In this document: one piece after another, positions 1,993-7,062 of the stretch
Layout of the letters: each line of letters begins with the position of its first letter
How positions within the stretch are numbered: position 1 is the stretch's first letter
Assembly (NCBI GenBank): GCA_027037705.1
Contig: JALVYZ010000367.1
Span: 1-7,062 of the forward strand
Reading direction: 5' to 3'
DNA length: 7,062 nucleotides
From: a bacterium
Lineage (GTDB): Bacteria > DYJV01 > JALVYZ01
The notes under the pieces: model-generated
Database searches by the model: none
Told to the model about the DNA's origin: nothing
Seen by the model: the letters and a program-made list of their open reading frames with translations, nothing else
Made by a program: the position numbers and the translations under genes

Positions 1993-2032
1993 AAAAAAAA
2001 AGCCGTGAGTTCTTATTTTAGAACCCACGGCT
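1993..2032 (-). terminator. Attenuator B terminator (gene-proximal)
   Basis: On the - strand a 13-bp stem runs AGCCGTGGGTTCT (2032-2020), loop AAAATA, AGAACTCACGGCT (2013-2001), followed by eight further T (2000-1993). All pairs are Watson-Crick except one G-U (2025 with 2008). Read on the + strand the same position is an A-C mismatch and no T-run follows, which fixes the functional strand as minus. It lies just upstream of the AGGAGGTG of the 70-residue gene, so its formation would stop expression of that gene. Confidence 0.92.
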
Positions 2033-2067
2033 TGGGATTTTATTATAATACACCCCTACCGTGGGTT
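2022..2067 (-). promoter_or_regulatory. Attenuator B antiterminator pairing
   Basis: AACCCACGG (2067-2059), which is the Asn-Pro-Arg end of leader peptide 2, is perfectly complementary over 9 bases to CCGTGGGTT (2030-2022), the 5' arm of terminator B. Pairing would exclude the terminator. A ribosome stalled on the upstream Phe/Tyr codons leaves this arm free; a ribosome reaching the stop codon covers it and lets the terminator form. The pairing is read from the sequence; the mechanism follows classical trp/phe/his attenuation. Confidence 0.85.
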
Positions 2068-2118
2068 ATCTCCATAAAAATAATAAAAGTAAAAAAAGTT
2101 AAAGTTATTTATTTTCAT
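2056..2118 (-). CDS. Leader peptide 2, Phe/Tyr-rich attenuator peptide
   Basis: This 20-codon ORF (ATG 2118-2116, TAG 2058-2056) has FNFFYFYYFY at residues 6-15: nine of ten residues are Phe or Tyr, with no Trp anywhere. Residues 16-20 are GDNPR, then stop. The Pro-Arg codons CCA CGG lie inside the antiterminator arm. An AGGGAG Shine-Dalgarno (2134-2129) sits 10 bases before the ATG. The peptide is expected to have no role of its own; translating it measures charged tRNA-Phe and tRNA-Tyr. T-rich DNA inflates Phe and Tyr codons by chance. The matching architecture of leader 1 and the fixed three-codon gap between the last Tyr and Pro-Arg argue against coincidence. Confidence 0.85.
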   Translation of the reverse strand: MKINNFNFFYFYYFYGDNPR

Positions 2119-2139
2119 TTTTTCATTTCTCCCTAAAAT

Positions 2140-2176
2140 AAAAAAGCCGTGAGCAAACTTTCCTTTGCCCACGGCT
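2140..2176 (-). terminator. Attenuator A terminator (promoter-proximal)
   Basis: The - strand stem AGCCGTGGGCAAA (2176-2164), loop GGAAAG, TTTGCTCACGGCT (2157-2145) is 13 bp with a single G-U at 2169/2152, followed by a T-run to 2140. The lower seven pairs match terminator B exactly; the upper five differ in sequence but keep pairing (GCAAA/TTTGC here, GTTCT/AGAAC in B). As in B, the + strand version has an A-C mismatch and no T-run. Confidence 0.92.
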
Positions 2177-2210
2177 TTATAATCTGATAAAATCTACACC
2201 TACCGTGGGC
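2167..2210 (-). promoter_or_regulatory. Attenuator A antiterminator pairing
   Basis: GCCCACGG (2210-2203), formed by the Arg-Pro-Arg codons that end leader peptide 1, is perfectly complementary over 8 bases to CCGTGGGC (2174-2167), the 5' arm of terminator A. The base just 5' of CCCACGG is G here and A in copy B. Its partner changes with it (C versus T), so the alternative pairing is kept in both copies. Confidence 0.85.
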
Positions 2211-2271
2211 GTTCTATATAGTAGCTAAAAAAGTAAAAATATGTTGCCACGATAGCTGTAGATTTCATCAT
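2200..2271 (-). CDS. Leader peptide 1, Phe/Tyr-rich attenuator peptide
   Basis: This ORF has 23 codons from the first of two adjacent ATGs (2271, 2268) to a TAG at 2202-2200. Residues 11-18 are YFYFFSYY: seven of eight are Phe or Tyr, four of them Tyr, and no Trp is present. Then comes IERPR and stop. TGGAG (2280-2276) lies 4 bases before the first ATG and 7 before the second, so the second ATG (22 residues) has the better spacing. As in leader 2, exactly three codons separate the last aromatic codon from Pro-Arg, and CCA CGG forms the antiterminator arm. This region is less T-rich than leader 2, so its aromatic run is stronger evidence. The expected role is to sense charged tRNA-Phe and tRNA-Tyr in cis. 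Confidence 0.85.
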   Translation of the reverse strand: MMKSTAIVATYFYFFSYYIERPR

Positions 2272-2278
2272 ACTGCTC

Positions 2279-2305
2279 CATATACTATTAAAAAACTTTT
2301 GTCAA
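2279..2305 (-). promoter_or_regulatory. Candidate sigma-70 promoter for the attenuated transcript
   Basis: A consensus -35 TTGACA lies at 2305-2300 on the - strand. Possible -10 elements are TATATG (2284-2279, 15-base spacer) or TATGGA (2282-2277, 17-base spacer); neither is strong. Either would start transcription at about 2268-2273, right at the ATG pair of leader 1. That would leave the TGGAG outside the message, so the real start may lie further upstream. Confidence 0.4.
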
Positions 2306-2383: not shown

Positions 2384-3610
2384 ATGAAAAGTGCTTTAAT
2401 ATTTTTTTACAAAAAAAGTAATAGATATTCATATAACGCACTAATTGGAGCATTGGAAAAATATTTTCAACTTTCAGGAATTGATATTTTTATCCCATCT
2501 AATGAACAAAATCTTTTACAAATTTTAAAAAATATTTCCAATAACTATAAATTGATTATTTTAACTATTTCCTTTTTTACTACCCAAGTTTTCGAAACAA
2601 TTGAACTAATAAAAAAAGTAAAATTTCTTAATATAAAAAATCTAAAATTAATTGCTGGTGGTCCACATCCAACAGGAGAACCTGAAAGAACACTTAAAAT
2701 AGGTTTTGATTTTGTTTTAGTGGGTGAAGGAGAAATAACTTTTCCTGAGGCAATCATAAAGATTATAAATAACGAATCAATTCCTCAAATAATTTATCCT
2801 CAAAATAAAATAGATTTAAATGATTTTTTTCCACTTCCAAGACTTAAAATAAAAAAATTTGGACCTATTGAAATTACTCGAGGATGTCCTTTTTTTTGTA
2901 ATTTCTGTCAAACTTCAAGGATTTTTGGAGGTAAAGTAAGACATAGATCAATAGAGAATATATTAGACATTATTAAATATTTAAAAAAAGAAAATAGAAC
3001 TGATATAAGATTCATAACGCCAAATGCTTTTGCATATGGTTCAAAAAATGGAAGAGAAATAAATTTCAAAGCCATTGAAATTCTTTTAAAGGAAATAAAA
3101 AACATTTTAAAAGATGATGGAAGAATCTTTTTTGGTTCATTTCCATCAGAAGTAAGACCAGAACATGTAAATGAAGATACTGTTTCTATAATTAAAAAAT
3201 ACTGCTCAAATGATAATATCGTAATTGGTGCACAATCTGGCAGTGAAAAAATATTAAAATTATCCAATAGACAGCATGGAGTTAAAGATATTTTTAATGC
3301 AGTAAAAATAACAAAAAAATTTGGATTAACTCCAAATGTTGATTTTATTTTTGGACTTCCAGGAGAAGATGAAAATGATATTATAGAAACATTAAATGTA
3401 ATGAGAGAACTTATTACATTAGGAGCAAGAATTCATGCACATACTTTTATGCCTCTTCCCCAAACTCCTTATAAAAAAAGTCCTCCAGGGAAAATATCAA
3501 AACTGTTTTACAATGAATTTAAACATGATATTCCTGATGGTATTATCTTTGGCAATTATATTCAACAGGAAAAATTAGCTGAAAAAATTTACAATTATTT
3601 TAATTCTTGA
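2384..3610 (+). CDS. B12-binding-like / radical SAM domain protein, MJ1487-type
   Basis: This 408-residue protein has an N-terminal Rossmann-like cobalamin-binding-type domain (about 1-140, with AGGPHPTGEPERTLKIG at 91-107 and VLVGEGE at 111-117) and a radical SAM core. The core carries the [4Fe-4S] motif CPFFCNFC (Cys168, Cys172, Cys175), a SAM-binding GGK-type turn after it, and a GAQSGSEKIL (282-291) plus FIFGLPGE (321-328) segment typical of the B12/rSAM class. The classical DxHxxG cobalamin ligand is not seen, as is common in this subgroup. The combination EITRGCPFFCNFCQTSRIFGGKVRHRS resembles the MJ1487 family of archaea and anaerobes, whose substrate is unknown to me. The start agrees with the family N terminus, but no Shine-Dalgarno precedes it. 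The gene is transcribed away from the attenuated - strand unit and appears monocistronic. Confidence 0.88.
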   Translation: MKSALIFFYKKSNRYSYNALIGALEKYFQLSGIDIFIPSNEQNLLQILKNISNNYKLIILTISFFTTQVFETIELIKKVKFLNIKNLKLIAGGPHPTGEPERTLKIGFDFVLVGEGEITFPEAIIKIINNESIPQIIYPQNKIDLNDFFPLPRLKIKKFGPIEITRGCPFFCNFCQTSRIFGGKVRHRSIENILDIIKYLKKENRTDIRFITPNAFAYGSKNGREINFKAIEILLKEIKNILKDDGRIFFGSFPSEVRPEHVNEDTVSIIKKYCSNDNIVIGAQSGSEKILKLSNRQHGVKDIFNAVKITKKFGLTPNVDFIFGLPGEDENDIIETLNVMRELITLGARIHAHTFMPLPQTPYKKSPPGKISKLFYNEFKHDIPDGIIFGNYIQQEKLAEKIYNYFNS

Positions 3611-3932: not shown

Positions 3933-5039
3933 ATGAAAAAGTCTGAGTTCAGAAAGAAATTAAAAGAAAAGGGAATTTCAAGACGAGATTTTTTAAAATT
4001 TTGTTCCATCATGGCTGGAACCCTTGCTCTTGATGTAACATTTGCTCCAAAAATTGCTCATGCGTTAGAGACAAAAAAAAGACCTCCTGTAATCTGGCTT
4101 GAATTCCAAGATTGTGCTGGCTGTAGTGAATCATTTTTGAGAGCAACAAGGCCTCCTGTTGAAGAAATAGTCCTTGATATTCTATCAGTAGACTACCATG
4201 AAACATTAATGGCAGCATCAGGTTATCTTGCAGAAGAAGCCAAAGAAAAAACATTAAAAGCTGGAAAATATATTTTAGTTGTAGAAGGATCTATTCCCAC
4301 AGCAGATAATGGGGTTTATTGTACAATAGGAGGGAAAACAGCTTTACAATCACTTCATGAAGCCGCAAAAAATGCAATTGCAATAATTGCTGTTGGAAAT
4401 TGTGCTGCATTTGGGGGATTACCAAAAGCGCAACCTAATCCAACAAAAGCTGTGGGAGTTATGGATATTATAAAAGATAAACCTATAATAAACCTTCCAG
4501 GATGCCCAGTTAATGTAGTTAATATAACAGCAACAATCGTTCATTATTTAACCTTCAAAAAATTACCAAAAGTAGATAAATTGAAAAGACCTCTATTTGC
4601 ATATGGATTTAGAATTCATGATAATTGCGAAAGAAGAGCTCATTTTGATGCTGGAGAATTTGTAAAAGAATGGGGAGATGAAGGACATAGAAAAGGTTGG
4701 TGTCTGTATAAAATGGGATGTAAAGGTCCTATGACATTTGCTAATTGTCCAAGGGTTAGATGGAATGATGGGACAAGCTGGCCAGTTGCTTCAGGTCATG
4801 GATGTTTAGGATGCACAGAACCTGATTTTTGGGAAGTTGGAGCTTACAATAGAGTTGATATTCCAGAATTCATACCTCCTACATCATATCCAGATGCAAT
4901 TAAACCAAAAAAAGAATTACCTTCTTCTACAAATGCAGTATTAGGTGGGATAATTGGAGCAGCAGTTGGAGGTGCAGTTGCAGTAGGATTAACCAAAACT
5001 GGAGAAAAGTTAAAAACTAAAGAAAAAGAAGAAGATTAA
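3933..5039 (+). CDS. hybO: [NiFe]-hydrogenase small subunit, Tat-exported, group 1 (HybO-like)
   Basis: This is the electron-transfer subunit of a periplasmic H2-uptake hydrogenase. A Tat signal (SRRDFLKF at 16-23, hydrophobic core to about 43, likely cleaved after AHA) directs export of the folded complex. All cluster ligands are present: proximal [4Fe-4S] Cys61, Cys64, Cys157, Cys191; distal [4Fe-4S] His229, Cys232, Cys257, Cys263; medial [3Fe-4S] Cys272, Cys291, Cys294. CAGC (61-64) and GNCAAFGG have Gly at the two positions that carry supernumerary Cys in O2-tolerant enzymes, so this should be an ordinary O2-sensitive type. A Gly/Ala-rich C-terminal helix (about 336-353) followed by a Lys/Glu tail would anchor it in the membrane. 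At 368 residues it is the usual length. It is first in the operon, with AAGGAGG before it and hybA 12 bases after. The symbol follows the E. coli hyb gene order. Confidence 0.96.
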   Translation: MKKSEFRKKLKEKGISRRDFLKFCSIMAGTLALDVTFAPKIAHALETKKRPPVIWLEFQDCAGCSESFLRATRPPVEEIVLDILSVDYHETLMAASGYLAEEAKEKTLKAGKYILVVEGSIPTADNGVYCTIGGKTALQSLHEAAKNAIAIIAVGNCAAFGGLPKAQPNPTKAVGVMDIIKDKPIINLPGCPVNVVNITATIVHYLTFKKLPKVDKLKRPLFAYGFRIHDNCERRAHFDAGEFVKEWGDEGHRKGWCLYKMGCKGPMTFANCPRVRWNDGTSWPVASGHGCLGCTEPDFWEVGAYNRVDIPEFIPPTSYPDAIKPKKELPSSTNAVLGGIIGAAVGGAVAVGLTKTGEKLKTKEKEED

Positions 5040-5051
5040 AGGAGGTATTTA

Positions 5052-5924
5052 ATGTCTTTAAATAGAAGAAATTTTCTAAAAATATTAGGAATATCTTCAG
5101 GGGGTCTTCTTTTAAAACCTGTAAAATCAAAAGCATCAAATAAAAAATCTTTTAAAAATGAGATAGCAGTACTGTATGATGCATCTAAATGTGTTGGATG
5201 TAAATCTTGTCAAAATGCATGTAAAAGGGTGAATGGATTGCCTCCTGAAATTTCAGCAAATGGGTTATATGATGCACCTTTAGAATTATCAGAGAAAACA
5301 TGGTCTTTAATAGAACTTGCAAAACCTAAAGATAAACATCCATTTTTCTTTAAAAGGTGTTTTCATTGCACAGAGGCAAGTTGCGTTAATGTGTGTCCAA
5401 CTGGTGCATGTCATCATTTAAGCAATGGAGTGGTTGTAATAGACCAGAATTGGTGTATTGGTTGTGGATATTGTGCTCAAGCTTGTCCATTTGAAGTTCC
5501 TCATCTTGGAGAAGGAGAGGAAAAATCAACGGCAAGAAAATGTTTTTTATGTATTCAAAGATTAAAAAAAGGAGAAAAACCAGGATGTGTTGCCAACTGT
5601 ACAACTGGAGCTTTACAATTTGGGAAAAGAAAAGATTTAATCACCTATGCGAGAATAAGAGTTGATGAATTAAAGAAACAGGGTTATGAAAATGCAAATA
5701 TTTATGGCGATAATGAACTTGGTGGATTACATCATATAAGCATACTTTTAGATAAACCTTCAGTTTATGGACTCCCAGAATCTCCACAGGTAGCTACAAG
5801 TATCATGGCTGAAAGTTGGTTAAGCGGATTGATAGGTGCAGGATTGTTATCTGTTTTAATTATGCCTTTCTGGTTAGCATTTAAGAAAGAAAAAAAAGAC
5901 TCCAAGGAGGGTCAAAATGCATAA
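5052..5924 (+). CDS. hybA: HybA-like periplasmic four-cluster ferredoxin subunit of hydrogenase
   Basis: This 290-residue Fe-S protein relays electrons between the hydrogenase small subunit and the membrane quinone-reactive subunit. An N-terminal Tat motif (NRRNFLK at 4-10, then a short hydrophobic stretch) indicates export. Sixteen Cys form four [4Fe-4S] motifs of the DmsB/HybA kind: 47/50/53/57, 103/106/111/115, 135/138/141/145 and 164/167/179/183. The third-to-fourth spacing (C-x2-C-x11-C-x3-C) is typical of HybA/NrfC-like proteins. A C-terminal hydrophobic helix at about 257-277, followed by a Lys-rich tail, should anchor it, as in HybA. GGAGG lies 6 bases before the ATG. The end overlaps the next gene by 8 bases. 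Closely similar subunits occur in polysulfide and nitrite reductases; the hydrogenase assignment rests on the neighbours. Confidence 0.93.
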   Translation: MSLNRRNFLKILGISSGGLLLKPVKSKASNKKSFKNEIAVLYDASKCVGCKSCQNACKRVNGLPPEISANGLYDAPLELSEKTWSLIELAKPKDKHPFFFKRCFHCTEASCVNVCPTGACHHLSNGVVVIDQNWCIGCGYCAQACPFEVPHLGEGEEKSTARKCFLCIQRLKKGEKPGCVANCTTGALQFGKRKDLITYARIRVDELKKQGYENANIYGDNELGGLHHISILLDKPSVYGLPESPQVATSIMAESWLSGLIGAGLLSVLIMPFWLAFKKEKKDSKEGQNA

Positions 5925-6765
5925 TGAACTTTTATGGAAATGGCAAATATGGTTATATTTATGGGCTGCTGGAGTTGCTGGCGGTGGATACTTTATTGCT
6001 TCTCTTATTAATGTATTTACAGGGTTTACACAGGAAAAATTACTAAAATACTCAATCTCTATAGGATTACCATTTGTAATTTTTGGAACTTTAATGCTTT
6101 TAATAGATTTAGGAAGAATGGAAAGATTCTGGCATTTAATGGTAAGATTTTATTTTCATTCTCCAATGTCAATTGGAACTTGGGTTATTACCTTCTGGAT
6201 TATATGTGGTTTCCTATTGATCCTAATTTGGTTATCTGAGATGAATCTTCCACTTTTTAAATGGTGTTCAAGATTTTCTAATTTCAAAAATTTGATAGGT
6301 GGAATTGAGTTTGTATTATCTCCAATATTAATTGCATACACAGGAGTTCTTCTCAGTTGCACAAATATTCCATTATGGAAATCTTATTTATTACCTCCAC
6401 TATTTGTTATTTCTGCATCATCAACAGGACTTGCTGCAATTCTTTTAGTTATGATTGTTAGAGGAGAAGAAATTCACCATGTAATGGGACAAACATCAGT
6501 TTTATTAAGTATGTTTGAAGCAATTACACTTGTTTTGTTTTTACTGAGTGTTCCATCGCACATAATAGTAAAAGGTGCTTTAAGCTTTGCATTTTGGGGT
6601 GGTGTAGTTGTTGTAGCTTTGTTTATTCCGTTATGGTTAAAATTATGGAATCTTGGCCAGGAAAGAGAGAGTGATAAGTTACTTATGATTGCCGCATGGT
6701 GGATATTGTTAGGAGGTGTTATATTAAGAGCAATAATAGTTATTGGCGGACAGGTTTCTGCTTAA
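5917..6765 (+). CDS. NrfD/PsrC-type integral membrane subunit in the HybB position
   Basis: This membrane protein would take electrons from the HybA-like subunit and pass them to the quinone pool. About eight transmembrane helices can be drawn: 13-33, 47-66, 86-106, 130-147, 155-180, 195-213, 223-243 and 256-278. NrfD-family signatures include LGRMERFWHLMVR (65-77), the SPMSIGTW turn (82-89), YTGVLLS (141-147), LLPPLFVISASSTGLAA (158-174) and a late LRAIIVIGGQ. At 282 residues it is shorter than E. coli HybB (about 390 residues, ten helices) and closer to NrfD/PsrC, so I leave the symbol open. AAGGAGG (5904-5910) lies 6 bases before the ATG inside the hybA end, and the 8-base overlap implies coupled translation. 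The stop is 31 bases before the large subunit. Confidence 0.9.
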   Translation: MHNELLWKWQIWLYLWAAGVAGGGYFIASLINVFTGFTQEKLLKYSISIGLPFVIFGTLMLLIDLGRMERFWHLMVRFYFHSPMSIGTWVITFWIICGFLLILIWLSEMNLPLFKWCSRFSNFKNLIGGIEFVLSPILIAYTGVLLSCTNIPLWKSYLLPPLFVISASSTGLAAILLVMIVRGEEIHHVMGQTSVLLSMFEAITLVLFLLSVPSHIIVKGALSFAFWGGVVVVALFIPLWLKLWNLGQERESDKLLMIAAWWILLGGVILRAIIVIGGQVSA

Positions 6766-6796
6766 AATAAATTTTTTTAAATAGAAGGAGGAAGCA

Positions 6797-7062
6797 ATGG
6801 CAAAAATTGTAGTTGATCCAATAACGAGAATAGAAGGACATTTAAGAATTGAAGCTGAAGTAAAAGATGGGAAAATAACAAACGCATGGTCTTCAAGCAC
6901 CATGTGGAGAGGCATAGAAAAAATTTTAAAAGGTAGAGACCCAAGGGAAGCATGGACATTTGCTCAAAGAATCTGTGGTGTATGTACAACTGTTCATGCA
7001 ATTGCTTCAATAAGAGCAGTTGAAAATGCTCTTGGGATAGTTATTCCTGATAATGCAAGAAT
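6797..7062 (+). CDS. hybC: [NiFe]-hydrogenase large subunit, 5' part (cut by window end)
   Basis: This is the catalytic subunit that holds the Ni-Fe(CN)2CO site; 88 complete codons of an expected roughly 550-570 are visible. [13 protein letters not shown] (7-19) includes the conserved Glu13 region, and the L1 signature follows: [26 protein letters not shown] (38-63) with Cys60 and Cys63, two of the four NiFe ligands, and the HAIAS stretch after it. The remaining Cys pair lies beyond the window near the C terminus. AAGGAGG (6785-6791) sits 5 bases before the ATG. There is no signal peptide, as expected for a subunit exported with its Tat-tagged partner. Placement after the NrfD-type gene reproduces the hybO-A-B-C order of E. 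coli. The frame runs open to the edge. Confidence 0.96.

Follow-up and report, generated by a model that had tools for sequence, protein, structure and literature searches.

Two predicted Phe/Tyr leader-peptide attenuators in series precede a small gene distantly related to the DAHP synthase regulatory domain

Analysis of a 7,062-nucleotide stretch of bacterial DNA (the window) revealed that its minus strand carries, in this order, two short open reading frames (ORFs), each followed by a terminator, and then a gene of 70 amino acids with a terminator of its own (Table 1). Very probably these elements form a monocistronic, Phe/Tyr-responsive unit made up of attenuator 1, attenuator 2, the small gene for a putative feedback subunit and its terminator. 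As judged from the sequence, the unit would almost certainly be controlled by ribosome-mediated attenuation in response to Phe/Tyr supply, and both attenuators probably function in series. Each leader ORF contains a run of the regulatory codons, an intrinsic terminator lies between leader and structural gene, and the gene downstream can be assigned, through its domain relationship, to the pathway of the amino acids sensed; in the predicted folds, a ribosome at the stop codon masks the 5' arm of the antiterminator, and a stalled one leaves it exposed.

Table 1. Features of the minus-strand unit, in window coordinates
Feature	Position	Strand	Description
Possible promoter	2305-2279	-	TTGACA (2305-2300), 15 nt, TATATG (2284-2279); candidate
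Leader peptide 1	2271-2200	-	MMKSTAIVATYFYFFSYYIERPR-stop
Attenuator 1 strand 1, protector arm	2261-2247	-	CTACAGCTATCGTGG; pairs with 2208-2194; z -3.6
Leader 1 Phe/Tyr run	2241-2218	-	YFYFFSYY
Attenuator 1 strand 2	2209-2194	-	CCCACGGTAGGTGTAG; 5' arm of the antiterminator, overlaps Pro-Arg-stop
Terminator 1 with T tail	2178-2137	-	hairpin 2178-2143, 15 pairs; z -7.2
Attenuator 1 strand 3	2175-2168	-	GCCGTGGG; common to antiterminator and terminator
Leader peptide 2	2118-2056	-	MKINNFNFFYFYYFYGDNPR-stop
Leader 2 Phe/Tyr run	2103-2074	-	FNFFYFYYFY
Attenuator 2 strand 2	2065-2059	-	CCCACGG
Terminator 2 with T tail	2033-1992	-	hairpin 2033-2000, 14 pairs; z -8.9
Attenuator 2 strand 3	2031-2024	-	GCCGTGGG
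70-aa gene	1969-1757	-	distant relative of DAHP synthase ferredoxin-like regulatory domain; GGAGGT at 1981-1976
Terminator of small gene	1753-1730	-	found by terminator search

Leader ORFs and predicted folding of the minus-strand unit

The first leader reads YFYFFSYY-IER-PR-stop, with four Tyr and three Phe in its run, and the second FNFFYFYYFY-GDN-PR-stop, with five Phe and four Tyr; neither contains Trp, and ribosome-binding-site-like GGAG and AGGGAG sequences lie upstream of the ORFs. The original prediction of two aromatic-run ORFs without Trp, each ending in three codons and Pro-Arg-stop, was borne out exactly for ORFs and stops, while the start of leader 2 had to be corrected to 2118 and the spacer of exactly three codons, present in both window leaders, turned out not to be kept in a relative described below. 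Among 2,000 dinucleotide-preserving shuffles of positions 1993-2280, none contained an ATG-initiated ORF of 14-40 codons with at least 8 Phe/Tyr codons in 10.

In each related unit the candidate promoter motif TTGACA likewise precedes the first leader, and it is absent before the downstream leaders. TTGACA-N15-TATATG did not give a clean promoter for leader 1, as the transcript start would fall at about the leader ATG. The same spacing occurs in the window (2305-2269) and around 6630-6588 of a trp locus of the same genome described below (L018), where TTGACA-N15-TATATG or -TATAAA is followed 7-8 nt later by ATGATGAAA. From this sequence arrangement, the leader-peptide mRNAs may start at or next to the start codon, i.e., they may be leaderless.

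A search of both strands found five terminator-like sites, compared to 0.5 expected by shuffling, and recovered both leader terminators, each with its T tail, independently of the original prediction. Each terminator carries CCGTGGG in its 5' arm, the complement of the CCCACGG motif in its leader (at 2209-2203 and 2065-2059, respectively), and the antiterminators reached z scores of -2.7 (attenuator 1) and -4.0 (attenuator 2) against shuffled sequences. In the predicted fold of untranslated attenuator 1, strand 1 (CTACAGCTATCGTGG) pairs with strand 2 (CCACGGTAGGTGTAG), so that strand 3 remains available for the terminator. With a ribosome stalled in the aromatic run, strands 2 and 3 are predicted to pair at -13.7 kcal/mol (-11.5 when stalled at the last Tyr), and with a ribosome at the stop codon only the terminator is predicted to form. 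Attenuator 2 gave the corresponding states, with 2:3 pairing on stalling at -20.8, stronger than in attenuator 1, and the terminator at the stop codon. These complementarities and mutually exclusive folds agree with the earlier proposal that a CCACGG arm inside the ORF competes with a terminator of about 13 bp and its T-run, and they fit classical ribosome-mediated attenuation.

Both attenuators are complete, as originally predicted; the 1:2 protector hairpin occurs in attenuator 1 only. Because attenuator 2 lacks a protector and its antiterminator is the stronger, an untranslated leader 2 would be expected to read through. In full-length folding the terminator was more stable even in the stalled state, and the decision must therefore be kinetic, as in classical attenuators.

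According to the proposed mechanism, when tRNA-Phe and tRNA-Tyr are charged the ribosome would reach Pro-Arg-stop and cover CCCACGG, so that the GCCGTGGG arm would pair with its 3' partner and RNA polymerase would terminate. When Phe or Tyr is short, the ribosome would stall in the aromatic run, CCCACGG would pair with CCGTGGG and the polymerase would read on. The additional 1:2 hairpin of attenuator 1 would favour termination when the leader is untranslated. A transcript would have to pass both decisions, from which we infer a lower basal leak and a steeper induction, i.e., multiplied repression. The product, a relative of the DAHP synthase domain that senses Phe/Tyr, would be made together with the aromatic pathway.

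Divergent from this unit, the plus strand of the window carries a gene (2384-3610) for a B12-binding radical SAM protein that belongs to the uncharacterised family TIGR04013 (MJ_1487). The plus strand also carries a membrane-bound NiFe hydrogenase operon (3933-7062) with genes for a small subunit bearing a Tat signal and, by sequence reading alone, for an iron-sulfur protein, an integral membrane subunit and the start of the large subunit.

The same switch in a relative and before trpE

The genomes compared included one relative of the same order, here called G001, which belongs to a different family within the order. This metagenome-assembled genome carries the label 'Candidatus Methylomirabilis sp. 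isolate SulCav_AS07-7_3_33_596'. Its homolog of the small gene is also stand-alone, encodes 75 amino acids with a strong ribosome-binding site of its own, and shares 38% identity in the search and 33% over the full alignment. Upstream of it come a leader (MTISNIFYFYFYFIYPR-stop), an antiterminator (z -6.0) and a pair of consecutive terminators. Instead of keeping the hairpins and losing the aromatic ORF, G001 thus retains the whole leader architecture, namely the Phe/Tyr run, Pro-Arg-stop and the antiterminator and terminator arms. The small gene has a single leader in G001, and the double-leader form was seen once for this gene.

At the G001 locus (contig C73, 1364-1460; L003), the one leader is followed by two terminators with a shared arm sequence. 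Strand 4 (CTCACGGC) perfectly matches the 5' arm of terminator 2 (GCCGTGAG) and can pair with it once strand 3 is occupied by strand 2, in which case the last arm stays single-stranded; precisely this chain is the predicted full-length minimum-energy fold. From sequence and predicted folding, one leader may thereby disarm two terminators by relay.

A further G001 leader (MSTHFNFYFFYFYYNKTVEGISLR-stop), with an aromatic run and the same terminator, precedes an operon encoding ADTH synthase (TIGR01949), 3-dehydroquinate synthase II (DHQS II), a prephenate-dehydrogenase-like protein (tyrA) and chorismate mutase-prephenate dehydratase (pheA), which include the archaeal-type entry to aromatic biosynthesis; the antiterminator of this leader was no stronger than in shuffles (z 0.1). 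In the window genome, a Trp-run leader (MIIQNSTWCWWWNNLSFREYPR-stop) with the same terminator arms stands before trpE, and a second Trp leader (MMKNNYWWSWWKIFRFRG-stop) with the same arms lies farther upstream, with a RelB/ParE-type pair between them. At this locus (L018; G000, contig C285, 6590-5848, minus strand), the two Trp-rich leaders and their terminators form a series upstream of trpE and flank the RelB-like/ParE-like pair. The toxin-antitoxin-like pair may be under Trp attenuation, or it may be an insertion between duplicated attenuators.

The pattern GCCGTG-N-CACGGCTTTT had nine hits in the two genomes (palindromic sites counted on both strands), and nine of nine fall in these leaders. 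The leader codons track the pathway, Phe/Tyr before Phe/Tyr genes and Trp before trp genes. Since the codons match the pathway and the arms are confined to such leaders, chance is untenable and antisense-only transcription is unlikely; the latter was set aside on this comparative result. Serial control recurred in three forms: paired Phe/Tyr leaders, paired Trp leaders ahead of trpE, and a single leader with two chained terminators. An Rfam search of the window and its relatives gave no leader family above the cut-off, and a weak match to the trpB motif was discarded, as it mirrors the hairpin pattern.

The 70-aa protein and the aromatic pathway

The original prediction had noted one small gene downstream of the attenuators; the gene is present, and its identity, added here, is the most interesting part of the unit. 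Its product matched PF18152 (DAHP_snth_FXD) with an E value of 6.5e-5 and 23.1 bits, below the gathering score of 27, and the G001 homolog likewise stayed below this cut-off (23.1 bits vs 27). Because the score lies below the curated cut-off, the protein is termed a distant relative and not a member of the family. The AlphaFold model (pLDDT 74) was most similar to residues 1-71 of the Thermotoga maritima DAHP synthase TM0343 (Z 10.6, 2.3 A over 69 residues); the top three entries had Z scores of 10.1-10.6 and the next ones, unrelated ferredoxin folds, at most 7.7. The predicted model thus has a ferredoxin-like fold matching the N-terminus of the T. maritima enzyme, a domain that carries Tyr/Phe feedback inhibition. 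A scan of the genome contigs with the 70-aa protein gave no match, nor did a profile of the two homologs against PDB sequences.

Across 386 genomes surveyed, the PF18152 matches listed fell almost without exception in frames of the length usual for DAHP synthase. Among them was one domain standing alone; the survey gave no places for weak matches, and more orphan domains may exist. This strongly conserved stand-alone ferredoxin-like domain of 69 aa (L060; G309, contig C17, 2587-2085, minus strand) belongs to an unrelated genome, where its neighbour is a gene for chorismate mutase.

Neither type I nor type II DAHP synthase was found in the window genome or in G001: the PF00793 matches in both genomes were KdsA only, and PF01474 (type II) had no match. 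The absence of a detectable DAHP synthase in two genomes indicates that the orphan domain probably regulates another component of the aromatic pathway. In the window genome, the assembly of which is fragmented and about 93% complete, ADTH synthase and DHQS II were not found, and pheA is cut at the contig end (C285, about 9221-9223). The genes expected upstream of pheA (ADTH synthase, DHQS II and tyrA) may have been lost in an assembly gap, and such a gap is as likely an explanation as true absence of the first two.

The chances are about even that the 70-aa product would act as a separate trans-acting regulatory subunit. Its production along with the aromatic pathway would have an analogy in acetohydroxyacid synthase, whose small regulatory subunit is synthesised together with the catalytic one. 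A more specific reading is held tentatively, that of a free-standing allosteric Phe/Tyr sensor acting in trans on the ADTH synthase/DHQS II entry; the regulatory domain would then possibly have outlived DAHP synthase, been redeployed, and come to be co-regulated with the alternative route by serial Phe/Tyr attenuators.

Alternative readings and known systems

If one attenuator worked and the other were a fail-safe terminator or a decaying recent duplicate, repression would not be multiplied. The protector found in attenuator 1 and not in attenuator 2, the differing default states, and the single leader with which G001 manages, though with two terminators, are all compatible with that view; a decaying copy would nevertheless be expected to lose its ORF, run, antiterminator or terminator, whereas both units retain an intact ORF, an aromatic run of 8-10 codons, an antiterminator and a terminator despite differing surroundings, and we consider such a division unlikely. 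It is quite unlikely that the leaders sense different things, one mainly Tyr and the other mainly Phe, and form an AND gate in place of a multiplied single signal: Phe and Tyr are mixed throughout both runs and a stall at almost any run codon frees strand 2, even though the run closes with Tyr-Tyr in the first leader and with Tyr-Phe-Tyr in the second, just ahead of the spacer.

The distant domain match and the failure to find a DAHP synthase of either type in the two genomes would suit a 70-aa gene that is the remnant of a lost DAHP synthase and no working regulatory subunit. Such a remnant would not be expected to sit behind a conserved switch, and yet the G001 homolog is free-standing too, of similar length, with a strong ribosome-binding site and a conserved attenuator, and an unrelated genome holds a free-standing domain adjoining chorismate mutase; this makes the remnant very unlikely. 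As for T-rich ORFs lying by chance beside ordinary terminators, with no regulation, TTT codons are indeed common on a T-rich strand, but the shuffles (0/2000), the same layout in G001, the Trp versions before trpE and the confinement of the terminator arms to such leaders render this extremely improbable.

The preferred reading, two Phe/Tyr attenuators acting in series, draws on a classical mechanism, leader-peptide attenuation. Like the pheA/pheL and trp-type attenuators, the unit has leader ORFs with cognate codons, a stop overlapping the antiterminator arm and an intrinsic terminator before an aromatic-pathway gene, and attenuator 1 shares their 1:2:3:4 protector layout; unlike them, it comprises two complete units in series, mixed Phe/Tyr codons and a single small regulatory-domain gene. 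The 70-aa product resembles the N-terminal domain of TM0343 (PF18152) in predicted fold and domain length, and differs in being free-standing, with about 16% identity, a score below the Pfam cut-off and no DAHP synthase found in the genome.

The mgtCBR operon of Salmonella has tandem attenuators, in which two leader ORFs sense ATP and proline and the hairpins are unlike intrinsic terminators (PMC3641672). There too, two serial leader ORFs control one downstream unit by attenuation, whereas here Phe/Tyr would be the signal for both leaders and an intrinsic terminator follows each of them. Tandem riboswitches, such as those of Bacillus clausii metE, likewise place two RNA switches in series, and each switch has a terminator (PMC3641672); in these the RNA binds metabolites directly, while in the present unit the sensor would be the translating ribosome. 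A text search of open-access papers (subscription literature being outside its scope) retrieved no case of tandem leader peptides that sense the same signal and have an intrinsic terminator each, and a limited open-access search retrieved no regulator described for the archaeal-type aromatic route.

The mechanism is thus a known one, and the arrangement and the target are new. The results locate predicted leader-peptide attenuation of the classical kind in the aromatic biosynthesis of a bacterial lineage that has been little studied, present serial attenuation built in three ways, and point to a stand-alone feedback subunit, with a small protein as the candidate, in bacteria whose aromatic route is of the archaeal type.
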